Positions 7,158-14,619 of a stretch of 64,000 nt of DNA are shown here, piece by piece. Source of the DNA: an uncultured Saprospiraceae bacterium (lineage in GTDB: Bacteria; Bacteroidota; Bacteroidia; Chitinophagales; Saprospiraceae); NCBI GenBank assembly GCA_937981555.1, contig CALJOK010000057.1, positions 62,001-126,000 on the forward strand, in the 5' to 3' direction. Numbering within the stretch: position 1 is the stretch's first letter; each line of letters opens with the position of its first letter. The translations under genes were made by a program, and so were the position numbers. The notes under the pieces are model-generated. The model saw nothing but the letters and a program-made list of their open reading frames with translations. It made no database searches and was not told where the DNA came from.

Positions 7158-8267
7158 ATGAACAAAATATATTTTCTTTTCTTTTTTCTTTTCCTATTTA
7201 TTTTGAGTTGCGGTGATGATGATACACCAGAAGAATGTGGTGTTACAGGCGATCTATCCGATATTCCATACAATCCTCAAAGCTTTTCAATTACCAAACC
7301 TGATGGTTTTCCTTCGATGTTTATTCCTGCGGATAATCCAATGACCGTTGAAGGAATAGAGTTGGGGCGACATCTTTTTTTTGATCCAATTCTTTCCGCA
7401 GATAGCACGATGTCTTGTTCTAGTTGTCATCTACCTTCATTAAGTTTTACAGATGGAGGAGCTACAAGTGTTGGAATTAATGGTATTTCAGGAGTGCGGA
7501 GTTCGATGAGTTTGTTGAATATTGGCTATGTGGAGAAAGGCTTGTTTTGGGATGGAAGATCTAATGATTTAGAAGATCAGGCAATACTACCTGTGGAAGA
7601 TCCTATCGAATTACATGACACCTGGGAAAATGTAGAGGGGAAATTAATAGCTCATCCTAGTTACCCTGAAATGTTTCGAGAAGCTTTCGGAATCGAAGAT
7701 CGGTCAGAAATAACCAAAGAACTTGCAGCAAAAGCTATAGCCCAATTTGAAAGAACTTTAATTGGTGCTGATTCAAAATATGATAAAGTCATCTTTCAAG
7801 GGCAAGCGGCATTTACCGATTCGGAAGATAGAGGGATGAGAATGTTTACAGATGCGCAAGGTGGATTACCTGATGCAGAATGTGCACATTGCCATGCTTT
7901 GCATTTAGGGACTACTGACGATTTTTTTAATAATGGTTTAGATTCTGTTGGATCATTGACGGAATTTATTGATTTAGGTTTAGGAGGAGTGACTCAGGAC
8001 ACTTTTGATAATGGGAAATTCCGTGCGCCTACTTTGCGTAATATTGCGCTGACAGCCCCTTATATGCACGATGGCCGATTTGAAACATTGGAAGAGGTCA
8101 TTGATTTTTATAATGAAAGTCCTAATCATAATAATTCTTCAAATGTAGATGTTAATATCCGTCCTTTGGAATTGACTGCTGAGCAAAAACAAGATTTGAT
8201 TAATTTTTTGCACACACTTACCGATACTATTTTTACCACGAATCCGACATTTCAGAGTCCTTTTTAA
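7158..8267 (+). CDS. Di-haem cytochrome c peroxidase, MbnH/MauG type
   Basis: This 369-residue predicted lipoprotein (FILSC lipobox) has two c-type haem sites, CSSCH near residue 93 and CAHCH near residue 247. Other family landmarks are ELGRHLFFDPILSAD, GLFWDGRSNDLEDQA, FRAPTLRNIALTAPYMHDGRF and LTAEQKQDLINFL. Members reduce peroxide or oxidise tryptophans in partner proteins. The adjacent MbnP genes strongly favour the MbnH role of modifying an MbnP tryptophan, rather than stand-alone peroxide detoxification. The protein should sit on the periplasmic or outer face. A methionine in PYMHDG at the distal position is more peroxidase-like than MauG-like. Confidence 0.9.
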   Translation: MNKIYFLFFFLFLFILSCGDDDTPEECGVTGDLSDIPYNPQSFSITKPDGFPSMFIPADNPMTVEGIELGRHLFFDPILSADSTMSCSSCHLPSLSFTDGGATSVGINGISGVRSSMSLLNIGYVEKGLFWDGRSNDLEDQAILPVEDPIELHDTWENVEGKLIAHPSYPEMFREAFGIEDRSEITKELAAKAIAQFERTLIGADSKYDKVIFQGQAAFTDSEDRGMRMFTDAQGGLPDAECAHCHALHLGTTDDFFNNGLDSVGSLTEFIDLGLGGVTQDTFDNGKFRAPTLRNIALTAPYMHDGRFETLEEVIDFYNESPNHNNSSNVDVNIRPLELTAEQKQDLINFLHTLTDTIFTTNPTFQSPF

Positions 8268-9013
8268 TATTAGTGATATAAGTTTTTATTCAAAGGAAAT
8301 TATCGCCTGAGATCTTATCTGTATAAAAGATGATTCCTGTATAAATAGTTATGGATTTAAAAATTCAATTTCCTTTCCAATGAGCATCATGGTGCCTTTG
8401 ATAAATGTAGAAGGCTAAATCTAACTTTAAGAAGATATGTTTAAGAAGTAAAAAAAATCTTTCCAATCAAAAATCCTTTTTTCTCAAATTGAATTAACTA
8501 TTGACCTAATACTTGTTATTTTTTTCTAGAAAAACACATATAAATTATCCTAAAATTTATCGAGTTACCCCCCACAGTTTTGCCAATAACGCAATATTGT
8601 TTTTTGTATATGAAAACTCTTATTTTTTAATCTTATTGATTTCATTAGGTTTTTTAGTCTAAAATGATTCCACATTAGTTTTTTTTCACATAATTTTTTT
8701 TTCATATAAAAATAGAAATCCTTGTCACAGTACTATTAGTTTTTTTATTTTTTTACCTCTTAAATGAGGGTTCTAGGCATATTGTTTGCCTATTAGATAA
8801 CTGTTCCGATGCAGGATACACAAACATAAAAACTCCCACAATTTTTCCCCGTACTAAGTTTTACAAACAACTACACTATCAACAGTAACACACTTTATTT
8901 ATTACAGGTTTCTTGAAAAAGCATTAGCTAAAAAATACGATGCAAAAAAAAATAGCTAATGGTTGGATCATTCCTGTGATTATTTCATGAACATTTCAAA
9001 GTGTTACGATTTT
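8268..9013. other. Gene-free AT-rich stretch before the subtilase gene
   Basis: No reading frame of interest and no RNA gene is seen. The stretch has many T runs and one 9-bp inverted repeat near its right end, annotated separately. The promoter of the downstream subtilase gene presumably lies here, but I could not find a clean TTG-N19-TAnnTTTG site. Confidence 0.5.
8922..8961. repeat. 9-bp inverted repeat just upstream of the subtilase gene
   Basis: CATTAGCTA (8922-8930) is the exact reverse complement of TAGCTAATG (8953-8961), separated by 22 A-rich bases. It lies about 50 bases before the chosen start at 9014 and could be an operator or a 5' leader hairpin. Confidence 0.45.
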
Positions 9014-12000
9014 ATGAAAAATGCAATAATGAGTTTTTGCGCTATCATATTTATGATATGCGTAACGGAGATGCACGGTCAAAATCAATCGATCGACAAC
9101 TCAACCACGAAAAAAATGCAACCTCAACAGTTTGTTGAACAGCAACAAAATTTCCAGGAAGACATATTAGGGGAAGACTATGTAGTCGTTATTTCCTTTG
9201 ATAAGATTCCTTCAAAATTGGAAATGAAGACCTTGCAAAAAGCAGAGATCGAATTAATAAATTACCAATATAAAAATACCTACTTAGCTAAGGTTCCCAC
9301 AAAAATGAATGCTTCTGAATTGAAGAAATGTGGTATCCAAACCTTGCGTAAGTACATTATAAAAGAAAAACTTTCACCTGAAATTAGGGAGGGACGATTT
9401 CCAGAGTGGGCCGTAAAATCGCCTGGAACTGTTGATGTAGCAATACTTTTGACAGATAATTTGGAAGCCAATCGTCTTCAATTCATTCACACTTTTAGTA
9501 TAACACACTTGCAAACACCTCTTCGAGGAGGTGATCTTATTATTGGGCGAATTGCTCAAAATGATTTGCAAAGACTTACTGCTTCACCAATGGTTGCGCA
9601 TGTAGATGCAATCGAACCTGCGGTAGAGCGACTTAACCATGAAAATCGAATCTTACAAAAAGTGAATGTACTCCAATCTAATGTTCCTGGGGCTCGAAAC
9701 CTAAGAGGTGAAGGCATCTATGTAGGAATAGGGGACGGAGGCGAGTTGGGTGACCACATTGATTTCAATGATCGGGTAACCAACTACGCCAACGGAACTT
9801 ATTCTTCATTCGGTGCTCACGGCGATCACGTGGCGGGTATTGTAGGAGGTGCTGGAAATGTTGATCCACTTCATCGTGGAATGGCGCCATCTTCCAACCT
9901 AATTATTCAAAAAACTACTTCAATTATTTCTAATGCTCAAACGTATTATGACAATCACGGAATGGTGATGACTAATAATTCTTATGGAGTGGGATATAAT
10001 TGTGAAACCAATGGAACTTATAATTACAGCAGTAATACTTTAGATTGGCAGATGAGGCAAATGCCTGAAATGCTCCATGTCTATGCAGCTGGGAATAGCG
10101 GCTATTCTGTTTGTGGAAATTATCCAGATGGATACAAATCTGTATTAAGATATTACCAAAGTGCTAAGAATGTTTTGACAGTTGGAAATGTTCGACAAAG
10201 TAGAGAACTGAATGGAGGAAGTAGTAAGGGGCCTGTTGCTGATGGGCGATTAAAACCTGAAATTGTAGCCATCGGTTCAGATGTAATGTCTACTGGAAGA
10301 GATTATGATTATTATAATGGAACAGGAACAAGTATGGCTTCTCCATCTACAGTTGGAACGTTGACCCTGTTAAATGAAAGATACAGAGAATTGAATGGAG
10401 GTGATGTACCTAAAGGTGGATTAATGAAAGCAATTGCTTGTAATACCGCAGATGATTTAGGAAATACTGGACCTGATTATGCTTATGGATATGGATTAAT
10501 TAATGGAAGAAGGGCTGCAGAATGTTTAGAGAATACCAGGTATAACGCTGATTCAATTTCAGATGGAGAAACCAAAACCTTTGATATTACCATTCCTTCA
10601 GGATTGGGACAATTAAAAGTAATGTTATACTGGCATGATGTGGAAGCTCCTGCTTATTCTGCCAAGACTTTGATTAATGATTTGGATTTAAAATTAACTA
10701 CTCCAAGTAACTCAGATTATTTGCCTTGGGTCTTGAATCATGATACTACTAATGTAACTGATTTAGCTACTCGAAAACTAGATACACTTAATAATATTGA
10801 ACAAGTAACACTAGATAATCCAACTGCTGGAATTTACACCATTACTATTGATGGAAGTAGTATTCCAACTGGACCACAAGAGTTTTTTATTGTCTATGAT
10901 TATGTAACTACTGATATAGTTTTGACATATCCATATGGAGAAGAAGGTATAGAACCTGGTTCAACTCAAATGATTCAATGGGATGCTGCTGTAAATAACA
11001 CATCTAGTTTCTCCCTAGAGTTTTCAGATGATGGAGGAGCTACATGGGATTTAATTGAGGCAAATATAGCTGCTGCTGATCGCCAATATTCATGGTCAGT
11101 ACCTTCTGCTACAACAGAAGAAGGTGTTATCAAAATTTTGAAAAATAGTGGTTCTGAAACAAGTCAAAATCTAGTTCCTTTTTACATATTAGAAAGACCA
11201 ACCAATCTTTCCTCAACGGTAATTTGTGAAGGACACTTAGAATTGACTTGGGATATAGTTCCAGATGTAGATTCTTATGAGATATATACTTTAGTAGGAC
11301 CAGATATGGTTGCTATCGATACGGTCGCCTCTAATACATATCAAACAGAAACTTTAGTTATAGGAGAAGAATACTGGTATGCTGTACGAGGAATGACTAA
11401 TGAAGGAAGTAAAACAGAACGTTCTATCGCTCTTCGAGTTACCGCTCAATCAGGAGGCGTTTGTCCTTGGGATTATGATTTGAGTTTGTTGGAGATTTCA
11501 ACGATTAAAGTAGGTCGAGCTAACACTTCATTATCATTGTCAAATGCTGCATTGATTAAGATAAGTTTGAAAAATTTAGGAGTTAATACTATAGACAGCT
11601 TTGAAATGTCTTATCAAGTAGATGGTGGAAATTTAAAATCAGAAATGATTTATGAAACACTCCTTTCAGGAGATACATTAGAAAAAATATTTACCACTAC
11701 CGCAAATTTTGCAAATCCAGGAACATATCAATTAAATGGATTCATTAATATTCCTGAAGATGTAGATTTAACAAATAATGAGACTGTTGGATCCTATCTA
11801 GTAACTCAATTGGCTAATCCACCGATTGCCTTACCATATGAACAGAACTTTGAAGGAATTTCAGTTTCCACCTTTACAGATAGTATTATAGGATTGGAAG
11901 GGATTAAAGAATGGGATTTTAAGCCTGATACTGAAGGTAAATTAAATTTTGTCAGCGAAGGTTCCAATAAATGTTTAGAATCAAAAGATTTCTCAAATAG

Positions 12001-12898
12001 TGGAACTAATGAAGGATTAACCGTCACTTTGAATATGTCTAACTATGTTGGAATCGAAGAATTAGAATTAAGTTTTGATTATAAATATAGTTCGCCAAAC
12101 AACTTAGGTGATGGAGATTATATTTACCTGAGAGGAAGTGATACAGATTCATGGATCGAAGCCACAGAATTAGTGCTCTCTAGTGATTGGTTGAGCTCTG
12201 GACAAATAGATTTGAGTAGTATACTTTCAGATAATGGACAACAATTTAGTAGCAGTACACAAATTCATTTTTCTCAAGGAATAAATTCAGGCTATGCGCT
12301 TGATAACTTTAAAATAATTTCTTTGGCTCCATTGCCAATCGAATTGACTTCATTTACTGCGGAAAAACATGGGATGGACGCAATCCTAAGATGGGAAACC
12401 GCATCAGAATTTAATAACCATAAATTTGAAATACAGGTAGCAAAGTCACCGCTACCACTTACAGACGAGAATTTTAAGCATATAGGAACGGTACTCGGTA
12501 ATGGCACAACAACAACTAACCATCATTACACATTTTCTGACAACTCCCCATTGAAATCCGGGTATCGTTACTATCGCTTAAAACAAATTGACTTTAATGG
12601 AAATTACACTTACTCAGATATTCGAAGTGTAAATTTTGGAACCTTTACAGATGTAGCTATTTTTCCTAATCCTTTTATAGGAGAAATCAATATTATGAAT
12701 CTGCCAGAAAAGGGCGTTTTACAAAACATTCAAATTCTAAATACATTAGGACAAGTTGTTTTCGAGTCTACTCAATTTGAGGATGTAAAAGATTTAACGA
12801 TTGAAATTGATGAAAAACTTGCTTCGGGTACTTATTTCTTAAGTATTCAAACATCCGAAGAAACTTTAACCTTTCCAATTATGAAAAATGGAAAGTAG
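9014..12898 (+). CDS. Subtilisin-like (S8) serine peptidase secreted by T9SS
   Basis: The frame is open from a TTG at 8963, but the ATG at 9014 gives a proper signal peptide (MKNAIMSFCAIIFMICVTEM) and is preferred, giving 1294 residues. The catalytic triad of subtilases is visible: Asp in GIGDGGELGDHIDF (about residue 240), His in GAHGDHVAGI (about 270) and Ser in GTGTSMASPS (about 440). Beta-rich domains follow, including LTYPYGEEGIEPGSTQMIQW, a fibronectin-like stretch and a CARDB-like stretch. The C terminus has ELTSFTAEKHG...LRWETASE and a type A T9SS sorting domain starting at VAIFPNPF. The likely role is degradation of extracellular protein at the cell surface. The gene stands alone and is followed by a terminator. 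Confidence 0.9.
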   Translation: MKNAIMSFCAIIFMICVTEMHGQNQSIDNSTTKKMQPQQFVEQQQNFQEDILGEDYVVVISFDKIPSKLEMKTLQKAEIELINYQYKNTYLAKVPTKMNASELKKCGIQTLRKYIIKEKLSPEIREGRFPEWAVKSPGTVDVAILLTDNLEANRLQFIHTFSITHLQTPLRGGDLIIGRIAQNDLQRLTASPMVAHVDAIEPAVERLNHENRILQKVNVLQSNVPGARNLRGEGIYVGIGDGGELGDHIDFNDRVTNYANGTYSSFGAHGDHVAGIVGGAGNVDPLHRGMAPSSNLIIQKTTSIISNAQTYYDNHGMVMTNNSYGVGYNCETNGTYNYSSNTLDWQMRQMPEMLHVYAAGNSGYSVCGNYPDGYKSVLRYYQSAKNVLTVGNVRQSRELNGGSSKGPVADGRLKPEIVAIGSDVMSTGRDYDYYNGTGTSMASPSTVGTLTLLNERYRELNGGDVPKGGLMKAIACNTADDLGNTGPDYAYGYGLINGRRAAECLENTRYNADSISDGETKTFDITIPSGLGQLKVMLYWHDVEAPAYSAKTLINDLDLKLTTPSNSDYLPWVLNHDTTNVTDLATRKLDTLNNIEQVTLDNPTAGIYTITIDGSSIPTGPQEFFIVYDYVTTDIVLTYPYGEEGIEPGSTQMIQWDAAVNNTSSFSLEFSDDGGATWDLIEANIAAADRQYSWSVPSATTEEGVIKILKNSGSETSQNLVPFYILERPTNLSSTVICEGHLELTWDIVPDVDSYEIYTLVGPDMVAIDTVASNTYQTETLVIGEEYWYAVRGMTNEGSKTERSIALRVTAQSGGVCPWDYDLSLLEISTIKVGRANTSLSLSNAALIKISLKNLGVNTIDSFEMSYQVDGGNLKSEMIYETLLSGDTLEKIFTTTANFANPGTYQLNGFINIPEDVDLTNNETVGSYLVTQLANPPIALPYEQNFEGISVSTFTDSIIGLEGIKEWDFKPDTEGKLNFVSEGSNKCLESKDFSNSGTNEGLTVTLNMSNYVGIEELELSFDYKYSSPNNLGDGDYIYLRGSDTDSWIEATELVLSSDWLSSGQIDLSSILSDNGQQFSSSTQIHFSQGINSGYALDNFKIISLAPLPIELTSFTAEKHGMDAILRWETASEFNNHKFEIQVAKSPLPLTDENFKHIGTVLGNGTTTTNHHYTFSDNSPLKSGYRYYRLKQIDFNGNYTYSDIRSVNFGTFTDVAIFPNPFIGEINIMNLPEKGVLQNIQILNTLGQVVFESTQFEDVKDLTIEIDEKLASGTYFLSIQTSEETLTFPIMKNGK

Positions 12899-13027: not shown

Positions 13028-13190
13028 TTTTTTTTTAATGAAAAATTATAATAAATAATTCACAAAAATAACGATTTGGTAAAAGCCTAATATTGTTAAG
13101 TTGTTGACTTTCAGTAGATTGCGAATAATGAAGAAGTAAGTTTTAAAATATAATTGATTTTTAAAAGTTCACAATAAGTGATTTTTGTCT

Positions 13191-13221
13191 TTGTCTAAGG
13201 GAGTAGACCGCTCTATATTTG
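13191..13221 (+). promoter_or_regulatory. Bacteroidota-type promoter ahead of the hairpin array
   Basis: TTG (13191-13193), a 20-base spacer and TATATTTG (13214-13221) closely match the Bacteroidota consensus TTG-N19-TAnnTTTG. Transcription would start near 13228 and run into the array of hairpin elements. A GGGAGG-type ribosome-binding sequence (13232-13237) and a 12-codon reading frame follow. Confidence 0.55.
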
Positions 13222-13249
13222 TTATGTAATCGGGAGGAAACGTAGAGAA

Positions 13250-13288
13250 TGAAGGGAAAAAAGATTACAAACAGGTTAAAAAGTTAAC
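13250..13288 (+). CDS. Possible 12-codon leader peptide
   Basis: ATG at 13250, after a purine-rich ribosome-binding-like sequence, opens MKGKKITNRLKS and ends at a TAA inside the first hairpin of the array. A leader peptide is only a possibility. Similar purine-rich mini-frames occur before the second and third elements (MVKNIKEAERKREIAK and MIKNIRGGMKRKIAK). Each ends in a TGA that overlaps the next ATG. Confidence 0.25.
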
Positions 13289-13388
13289 CTTCAAAATTGA
13301 CAAAAAGGATATGTTCATGGGATTATAATTTGTTGTAGTTAGTCAGAATCCTAAAAATTTTAGGATTCTGACCTACTTCTTTTTTTCT
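13273..13388 (+). ncRNA. Array element 1 (putative structured RNA)
   Basis: An upstream hairpin AGGTTAA/TTAACCT (13273-13290) precedes the core at 13309-13332. A 15-bp stem GTCAGAATCCTAAAA/TTTTAGGATTCTGAC (13342-13372) follows, then a T-rich tract. GTAG and CTAC can extend the lower stem. This copy lies directly behind the promoter at 13191-13221. Confidence 0.45.
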
Positions 13389-13428
13389 CATGGTAAAAAA
13401 TATAAAAGAGGCGGAAAGAAAAAGAGAG

Positions 13429-13553
13429 ATTGCAAAATGATGCAATTAAAAGCTGAAGGATCAGCACTTGAATTTGGATATGTTCATGGGATTATAATTT
13501 GTTGTAGTTAGTCAGAATCCTAGTTAAATAGGATTCTGACCTACTTCTTTTTC
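13429..13553 (+). ncRNA. Array element 2 (putative structured RNA)
   Basis: There are two small upstream hairpins, ATTGCA/TGCAAT (13429-13446) and GCTGA/TCAGC (13452-13465). The core is at 13478-13501. The 12-bp terminal stem GTCAGAATCCTA/TAGGATTCTGAC (13511-13540) has a six-base loop and is followed by a T-rich tract. The lower stem matches element 1 but the loop differs. Confidence 0.45.
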
Positions 13554-13591
13554 TCATGATAAAAAATATAAGAGGAGGAATGAAAAGAAAG

Positions 13592-13720
13592 ATTGCAAAA
13601 TGATGCAATCAAAAGCTGAAAGCTCAGCACCTAAATTTGGATATGTTCATGGGATTATAATTTGCAACATAGCAAGTCGGATCTTTAAAAATCTGACTTG
13701 CTATGCAAATATTTTTTCTC
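13592..13720 (+). ncRNA. Array element 3 (putative structured RNA)
   Basis: The upstream hairpins repeat those of element 2: ATTGCA/TGCAAT (13592-13609) and GCTGA/TCAGC (13615-13628). The core is at 13641-13664. The downstream stem is unrelated in sequence, CATAGCAAGTCGGAT against ATCTGACTTGCTATG (13668-13705), with one G-T wobble. It is followed by ATTTTTTCTC. The last bases of the core (ATTTGC) can pair with GCAAAT after the stem. Confidence 0.45.
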
Positions 13721-13785
13721 TTCACATAATAAATAAAGTATTAATATAGTTTATTAAGTATCCAACTCACAAAAAAGAATTAAAC

Positions 13786-13881
13786 AGCTAAAATTTTAGC
13801 TTGTCTATAAAGAATATGTTCATGGGATTATAATTTGTTGTGGTTAGTCGCGTATTTCAAATACGCGACTTTCTATTTTTT
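13786..13881 (+). ncRNA. Array element 4 (putative structured RNA)
   Basis: The upstream palindrome AGCTAAAA/TTTTAGCT (13786-13801) has no sequence relation to the other copies. The core is at 13814-13837. The downstream stem AGTCGCGTATT/AATACGCGACT (13846-13870) has a three-base loop and is followed by TTCTATTTTTT. Spacers are unlike those of elements 2 and 3, so this copy is older or independent. Confidence 0.45.
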
Positions 13882-13893
13882 AGGACTAAAAAT

Positions 13894-13940
13894 AAAATCA
13901 AAAAGGAAGTCATTTTTTAAATGACTTCCTTTTTGATTTT
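13894..13940. terminator. 22-bp perfect stem, bidirectional terminator
   Basis: Bases 13894-13915 are the exact reverse complement of 13919-13940, with a TTT loop. The stem starts with AAAATCAAAAAGG and ends in CCTTTTTGATTTT, so it gives a T tract on both strands. It separates the hairpin array from the minus-strand gene ending at 14044. Confidence 0.75.
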
Positions 13941-14043: not shown

Positions 14044-14619
14044 TTACTCTTCTTCTTTAGTTTCTTTTTGGAAAAAACTCAAACAATTTTTCTGCAAATC
14101 AACTTCCTCCGATGCCTCATTGAATAAATAGAAAACATAAACCAGTCCTTTTCCTTCTCTATATAATGCTAACATTTTGCAATGATCTTTATCCGAGAAA
14201 ACTGTTTTAGGTTGAAAAAAAACAACCGCTCCCCAATCTGCTTGATAACTTTCTAAATCTTCTCTTGACATTTCATGCAAAACCAACCGAGCTTCCTCAT
14301 CTTCATTTGTTGCTGCTGAGATCGCCATGTTTGACACTTTTATATGTGGAAAAGTTATTGCATTTTTTCCTTCTGGAAATAGGGCAAATCCAATTTTCAT
14401 ATCAGCTTTCTTAGCTTTAATCTCAAAATCAAAATCGACTACAATACTTTCGCTTGCCTTTATTTTTTTATAACTATTTTCTAAAGGAGCTAAAAACGCT
14501 AAATCCATTTTTGCTGATTTTTGAGCAAAAGATTTAGACACGTTTATTTGCGTAAATGCATTGTTAGAATAACTGAAAAATAAAAGACTGAAGGAAAGTA
14601 ATCGTAAAATATTTTTCAT
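14044..14619 (-). CDS. Secreted protein of unknown function
   Basis: I do not recognise this 191-residue protein. It has a signal peptide (ILRLLSFSLLFFSYSNNAFTQ) and no further membrane segment. The mature part contains VVDFDFEIKAKK, MKIGFALFPEGKNAITFP and DWGAVVFFQPKTVFSDKDHCKM, and ends in an acidic tail. It is probably a small mixed alpha/beta periplasmic or secreted protein. It diverges from the dipeptidase gene at 14689, leaving 69 bases for both promoters. Confidence 0.65.
   Translation of the reverse strand: MKNILRLLSFSLLFFSYSNNAFTQINVSKSFAQKSAKMDLAFLAPLENSYKKIKASESIVVDFDFEIKAKKADMKIGFALFPEGKNAITFPHIKVSNMAISAATNEDEEARLVLHEMSREDLESYQADWGAVVFFQPKTVFSDKDHCKMLALYREGKGLVYVFYLFNEASEEVDLQKNCLSFFQKETKEEE

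Follow-up and report, generated by a model that had tools for sequence, protein, structure and literature searches.

In the 64,000-nucleotide stretch of Saprospiraceae DNA analysed here, hereafter the window, a tandem array on the forward strand appears to be an undescribed noncoding RNA of the Saprospiraceae, and probably constitutes a single noncoding RNA gene about 650 nt long. Comparison of arrays shows a repeated unit made of a 5′ hairpin, a core and a 3′ hairpin, with the last unit formed by the core and a terminator. The hairpin sequences change freely while their pairing is kept, and the core is nearly fixed over the whole family. Our preferred reading, to which we give a probability of roughly 0.43, is that the array is a single noncoding RNA whose trans-acting core is presented to one partner, most likely an RNA-binding protein.

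The core of the array, AUGUUCAUGGGAUUAU, is nearly invariant across Saprospiraceae. In the window, the 24-nt sequence ATATGTTCATGGGATTATAATTTG is found in four identical copies on the + strand, at 13309–13332 (copy 1), 13478–13501 (copy 2), 13641–13664 (copy 3) and 13814–13837 (copy 4, the last), with start-to-start spacings of 169, 163 and 173, confirming the four-copy repeat with these spacings that the original prediction had described. The repeat lies far above chance: an exact 20-mer of the core occurs four times in the window, and with up to three mismatches the core has five matches, as compared with a mean of 0.02 in 100 dinucleotide shuffles, none of which reached five. The fifth match, with three mismatches, is at 11463, inside the open reading frame (ORF) at 8963–12898. 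Across the whole assembly (7.25 Mb in 117 contigs, 96.95% complete), the 22-mer ATGTTCATGGGATTATAATTTG with up to three mismatches matches only at the four array cores. The apparent invariance of the core across the family is biased because the loci were fetched by the core itself. In the 52 of 150 units without the fetching 20-mer, core positions −2 to +13 are still 83–98% conserved, with a mild bias remaining as some of these units come from loci fetched by the 22-mer with up to three mismatches; conservation in the 52 units falls off from about +14. Four arrays (L162, L169, L252 and L269) carry the promoter-like block described below and have first units with a diverged core (for example, TTTTTCATGAGATTAT), hinting at a second subfamily.

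Each core in the window is predicted to have a hairpin on either side. The 5′ hairpins, at 13273–13290 (copy 1, SL1), 13452–13465 (copy 2), 13615–13628 (copy 3) and 13786–13801 (copy 4), are short, with 5–7 bp and folding energies of −4.8 to −6.4 kcal/mol. The 3′ hairpins, also on the + strand, are located at 13335–13376 (copy 1, SL2), followed by a T7 tract at 13380–13386; at 13504–13544 (copy 2), followed by T5; at 13668–13705 (copy 3), followed by T6; and at 13846–13881 (copy 4), where the hairpin and its T-rich tract form the probable terminator of the array, in line with the T6 runs found at last copies elsewhere. The original prediction held that these stems all pair and are mostly unrelated in sequence. 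All of them do pair; copies 1 and 2, however, share the 3′ stem TCAGAATCCTA, from which the 3′ stems of copies 3 and 4 differ, leaving three distinct stems among four.

Family-wide, 5′ hairpins with at least six uninterrupted pairs are found in 72% of 97 first copies against 26% expected, and in 69% of 52 middle copies against 32%; last copies (45% of 95 against 36%) and single copies (46% of 37 against 37%) are barely above chance. The 3′ hairpin, compared with shuffled sequences, has mean stability z-scores of −5.5 in first, −4.2 in middle, −4.3 in last and −3.9 in single copies, and its 14-pair stem covaries. In alignment A1, composed of 28 units hand-picked from 65 diverse ones, 86.0% of cells are paired as opposed to 73.2% after shuffling, and changes on both sides are seen in 53 cells as opposed to 14.3. 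Alignment A2, which holds 150 of 176 model matches from 80 loci searched and includes six units that show no core, is biased towards the structure to which it was fitted; in it, 90.7% of cells are paired against 63.2% shuffled, with 565 double changes against 156.7. No shuffle of A2 reaches the observed value in four of five measures, the fifth (pairs with any double change) being saturated at 14 of 14 against 13.7, and versions in which the stem is slid are 33–50% paired. The 3′ stem covariation bears out the earlier claim of selection on structure around a fixed core, and relatives of the window's genome carry both the core and covarying stems. Pairing between the core and the stretch behind SL2 is weak, with mean z-scores of −0.42 in first, −0.28 in middle and −0.06 in last copies.

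A covariance model built from 28 units (R1) and run on Saprospiraceae genomes matches 102 of 120 at E ≤ 0.001, with 18 giving no match; among good-quality genomes of the family the count is 91 of 106, at 1 to 12 matches per genome. The window's own genome has exactly four copies (E ≤ 7.1e-12), and the next match has an E value of 0.05. With up to three mismatches, the 22-mer is present in 50 of 61 Saprospiraceae genomes versus 3 of 39 from other families of the order, and L006, examined among these three, is not an array. Sampling the class more widely, the core with at most one mismatch occurs in 5 of 6 Saprospiraceae versus 5 of 389 other genomes, the latter with single hits only, each carrying one mismatch, and the reversed control was matched in a single genome. 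A contig scan found the core in at least 118 stretches, and most of the 80 listed belong to Saprospiraceae or Saprospirales, including Phaeodactylibacter luteus and Flavilitoribacter nigricans. Array copy number varies between relatives. Among named phages and plasmids, core hits are at chance level only. The family had not been recognised from the sequence, and indeed no Rfam family reaches its gathering cut-off in the window; the literature searched, with most subscription journals outside it, holds nothing relevant on this RNA family or its sequence. Many of the best sub-threshold Rfam matches fall instead on 13894–13940, a perfect inverted repeat of 22 bp that has T/A tails. It separates the array from the convergent gene at 14044–14619 and is probably a two-way terminator.

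Family-wide context was analysed in 147 arrays, namely loci L001–L158 matching the 16-mer with up to two mismatches, with duplicates removed and with viral loci and the chance locus L006 included. Arrays with short flanks were set aside, which left 90 multi-copy arrays for T-runs, 136 of the 147 for the upstream motif and 137 elsewhere; the upstream motif is listed in 111 of the 136. In the window, the array is preceded by a promoter-like block, TTCACAA-N8-TTTTGTCTTTG (13168–13193, + strand), consisting of an upstream box at 13168–13174 and a −33-type element at 13183–13193. It is followed on the same strand by TATATTTG at 13214–13221, which we take to be a Bacteroidota-type −7 box. From the form and place of the block we infer a promoter, with transcription starting near 13228.

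With N6–10 allowed, the exact block occurs once in the window's 7.25-Mb genome, at the array. In 100 relatives it has 29 matches in 17 genomes, all among the 61 Saprospiraceae, and the reversed control has none. The spacer is N = 8 in every one of the 29, all 29 loci contain covariance-model matches, and the best core match 80–315 nt downstream is exact in 24, has one mismatch in three, and has three and four mismatches in one locus each. Across 127 arrays, a set without short flanks, viral loci and L005/L006, the N8 block is exact in only 22; with up to four mismatches it is found in 76, compared with 1 of 127 shuffled upstream regions, and 65 of those 76 arrays have the −7 box TTG at the same offset from the block. 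In the remaining arrays the block is divergent or none was found. That only 17 of 61 family genomes have the exact block, and that 18 of 120 give no model match, counts against our preferred reading.

T-runs complete the picture at the other end of the array. In the 90 multi-copy arrays, a run of at least six follows 20 of 90 first, 12 of 50 middle and 84 of 90 last copies, and a run of at least eight follows 1 first, 2 middle and 44 last copies. With the block before the first copy and the T-run mainly after the last, each array resembles a single transcription unit that has one promoter-like block and, as a rule, one strong terminator. The suggestion of a tandem family of small structured RNAs is therefore kept as regards noncoding RNA, but not as regards separate small RNAs, as the copies appear to be parts of a single transcript. 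Within the window, TAnnTTTG is found at 13214 and at one place in the array itself, 13632, immediately ahead of core 3, and the internal T7, T5 and T6 tracts could cause partial termination. Behind the first 3′ hairpin (for example, in L018, L044 and L045) a CCCTG ... AAAGATATA stretch is enriched, possibly as a processing site; ATATA is found there in 27 of 91 cases against 5.6 expected. The terminator T-run of last copies (for example, in L040 and L045) is often followed by GCCC or GTCC: among 121 array terminators, the only ones compared, 59% have a G after the T-run, and CCC lies in the first 8 nt in 30, then in 7 and 9. On read-through, these GCCC or GTCC sequences could base-pair with the core's GGG.

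The genes around the arrays were surveyed over flanks of 1.5–4 kb as a rule, and the neighbour counts cover that range. The nearest upstream ORF has the orientation of the array in 83 cases and the opposite one in 40; for the nearest downstream ORF the counts are 65 and 62, respectively, some of the 147 arrays having no neighbour in view. No downstream gene is common to most of the 147 arrays. The first downstream genes include 15 from one mixed single-linkage cluster of large outer-membrane or secreted proteins, 13 of them on the array's strand, and six from a RarA-like family named by eye; other groups are smaller. With neighbours on both strands and none shared downstream by most arrays, the array is not the leader of one gene, and this candidate role was rejected. 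A di-haem cytochrome c peroxidase recurs upstream, near 23 of the 147 arrays. In the window it is encoded at 7158–8267 (Pfam CCP_MauG), and an S8 peptidase with a type IX sorting tail (8963–12898) separates it from the array. We read this recurrence as an inherited locus rather than proof of function.

The tandem copies, and a copy number that shifts between relatives, would also suit a repeat that acts as DNA, such as a mobile element, a REP-like sequence or a site of recombination or protein binding. Against this stand the RNA covariation, the array-specific promoter-like block and the long T-run mainly at the end, together with the single orientation within arrays, the sense orientation behind phage genes and the recurring peroxidase neighbour. 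We regard a DNA-level repeat as very unlikely, and little speaks for a degenerate transposon.

Protein coding had been thought unlikely from the outset. A five-codon frame does fit the core, ATG TTC ATG GGA TTA TAA (M-F-M-G-L), with the stop kept in 234 of 289 copies, and a translated mini-ORF would account for such a frame. Its third codon positions, however, vary no more than the other two, with hardly any change in TTC and GGA, so that synonymous drift is absent, the stop is lost in 55 of 289 copies, and several viral copies have no first ATG. Fixed third positions and the copies without a stop speak against a conserved peptide, and we consider this explanation the least credible of all, with hardly any chance of being right.

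Copies of the core are also found in phages. Scans of IMG/VR gave 16 viral contigs with a core match. Four of these matches are inside ORFs and one is intergenic with no visible hairpin (L274, fold z −1.5), and these we count as chance; in L157 the core has a weak hairpin. In ten contigs (L152–L156, L158, L238, L239, L272 and L273), the core is followed by a hairpin between genes, as judged by eye and by fold z-scores, although L154 and L156, which are close kin, have weak scores (−1.3 and −1.1) that are no better than that of L274. One or more PHROGs matches lie near the element in each of the ten. L152 has an exonuclease, L154 tail sheath and tape measure, L156 tail sheath, L238 a DnaB-like helicase and a primase, L239 a helicase, L272 a RecT-like protein, an exonuclease and a methyltransferase, and L273 families of unknown function; L153 (tail fibre) and L155 have weak matches only. 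L154, L156 and L158 share a tail module, and the kinship of the remaining contigs was judged by their differing genes alone. The gene before the element in these three has a major head protein as its best PHROG and a tail protein as its second best; we take it for the tail tube because in L154 it sits between sheath and tape measure. In these contractile-tail phages the element thus lies between the presumed tail tube gene and the one that follows, a position at which an attenuator would create a step in expression. The phage copies suggest that the core has an important cellular partner.

In eight of the ten viral elements, the core begins 3–22 nt past the stop codon of a same-strand ORF. Such placement in 3′ untranslated regions, with the core directly before a strong stem, is what would be expected if the core and its hairpin were a cis element controlling termination or 3′-end stability of the carrier RNA in hosts and phages alike. 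Host arrays are built differently: their internal hairpins mostly lack a T6, they have their own promoter-like block, and a single ORF of at least 100 aa was seen inside any of the 147 arrays. Where a same-strand ORF of at least 60 codons lies upstream (118 arrays), the gap is below 37 nt in five, all of them viral contigs. Cis action is in our view improbable.

Tandem RNA units combined with phage copies also resemble ToxIN and phage PhiTE, as far as the available part of that account goes (PMC3475682), and the array could by analogy be the RNA antitoxin of a type III toxin–antitoxin system, with units binding a toxic endoribonuclease and phages carrying mimics. The genomic setting argues otherwise, as most arrays share no downstream gene, the window's convergent neighbour (14044–14619) has no Pfam match, and the family-wide spread is unlike that of a mobile defence module. 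A PADLOC scan of 10 of the 82 downstream neighbours of 100–400 aa found no type III toxin. We judge such an antitoxin quite unlikely, slightly more so than cis action. The downstream neighbour in L018 has one weak PADLOC candidate match, and a gene downstream of the array in L147 (L147:2177–3043) gives a hit to PADLOC's MzaA model (E 1.9e-48).

The strongest competitor is a tandem base-pairing small RNA (sRNA), in which the core would be the seed for one or more mRNAs or another RNA and the units would be freed by processing or partial termination; we put its chances at somewhat better than one in three. Its layout of a hairpin, an invariant linear core and a terminator is that of Yfr1 in the part of the report available (PMC2190773), and FopS likewise has its seed before a terminator, again according to the accessible text (PMC11697453). 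Every core position is invariant, as suits pairing, and TTCATGGG within the core could mask a start codon. In the window's whole genome, the 16-mer GTTCATGGGATTATAA with up to three mismatches has 116 sites compared with 64 for the reversed pattern, which is the one control pattern used.

Other searches for pairing partners speak against this small RNA. Outside the array, the window's genome has no second site for the 22-mer at up to three mismatches. In 0.77 Mb of relatives (145 loci, masked ±450 nt around cores with at most one mismatch), near matches outside arrays number 10, the reversed pattern has 9, and 80 shuffled patterns have a mean of 11.3 (s.d. 4.0), with 53 of the 80 as high as the observed 10. 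Many of the fetched non-array 22-mer hits are divergent array members, and of 26 non-array near matches inspected, one (L188) is clearly at the right place of a gene start. Pairing of the core to 671 sampled gene starts, with core strength controlled and with L005/L006 and loci above L158 excluded, is no better than to shuffled starts, with ratios of 0.95–1.03. An excess of pairing at gene starts disappeared with shuffled starts as the control and those loci excluded, and several near matches in which a core complement seemed to lie over a start codon (L166, L171, L188 and L006) were not retained as antisense targets. Pairing to ribosomal RNA and to the tmRNA locus is likewise no better than that of shuffled cores. 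A search of the window's genome for its own 23S rRNA found none, and a relative's 23S rRNA (model positions 566–2912) and, for 16S, the E. coli rRNA served as stand-ins. Short seeds of 8–11 nt may still act in a few mRNAs.

As no pairing target was established, the weight shifts to a protein partner. RRM proteins were found in 50 of the 62 genomes searched, with five matches in the window's genome; they single out no partner, because sister families without the RNA have them too. We consider the partner slightly more likely to be a protein than an mRNA, which makes a protein our first choice at less than even odds. Counting against a protein, the invariant 16–20 nt are long for a protein site and equally typical of a pairing seed.

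Returning to the single RNA with a trans-acting core, the sense orientation of the phage copies, the fixed core, the freely changing stems that still pair, the private promoter-like block and the many units together suggest that the core is the important element and acts in trans. The array RNA would show several cores, held between stable stems, to one conserved partner, which would most likely be an RNA-binding protein titrated by the array RNA, following the logic of CsrB-type sponges, in which an RNA titrates a protein. The dose would depend on the number of core copies, which is 1 to 12 per genome by model matches, and phages, carrying a minimal unit of core and hairpin, would supply this partner through transcripts of their own. 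Folding predicts a mean unpaired probability of about 0.4–0.6 over the core; the core is thus not predicted to be clearly unpaired, which counts against a sponge. A more specific form, in which a Saprospiraceae-specific multivalent sponge under a private promoter titrates a global RNA-binding regulator and phages have repeatedly taken up the unit as a 3′ untranslated region mimic, is doubtful, with a little under one chance in three. If it is true, phages would steer a host regulator during infection by means of such mimics. To our knowledge, RNA regulation in Bacteroidota outside Bacteroides has been little studied. Here a family-wide RNA combines a private promoter-like signature, a barely changing motif and copies in several phages, and its core is a ready bait for a new regulator or target and for testing whether phages exploit a host RNA hub.

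Sponges of the CsrB/RsmZ type are single RNAs in which one short motif recurs many times, set between hairpins, and the CsrA site is a GGA in a loop. The array is similar in repeating one motif between hairpins in one predicted transcript, but its motif is not the GGA-in-loop site of CsrA. Within Bacteroidota, the nearest multicopy sRNA family that we know of is FopS/GibS. These RNAs of Bacteroides, studied with RbpB, are multicopy sRNAs with a linear seed before the terminator and a sequence that was also seen in a phage (PMC11697453, as far as its available text covers them). The array shares the multicopy occurrence in Bacteroidota, the conserved linear stretch before a terminator and the presence in phages; FopS and GibS are not described, in the accessible portion of that source, as units of one multi-hairpin transcript, and the GibS Rfam model scores 20 bits in the window against a cut-off of 115. 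The cyanobacterial sRNA Yfr1 is, in the part of its description available, a single RNA of 54–69 nt that is found group-wide, with an unpaired, perfectly conserved core between two stem-loops, the 3′ one being the terminator (PMC2190773). Stem-loops flanking a conserved linear core, a terminator as the 3′ one and a spread over a bacterial group are common to both, and the Yfr1 layout is present in the array, although last copies have no clear excess of 5′ stems and internal 3′ stems mostly have no T-run. Yfr1 differs in its core (ACUCCUCACAC versus AUGUUCAUGGGAUUAU), in being a single RNA rather than an array and in its phylum. Unlike ToxI, the array has no common downstream gene, consists of long hairpin units and is present in the whole family. 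Tandem RNA units with phage copies are nonetheless shared by the two, and ToxI, with the pseudo-ToxI of phage PhiTE, is the closest example of a phage mimicking RNA units in tandem, going by the portion of the source at hand (PMC3475682).
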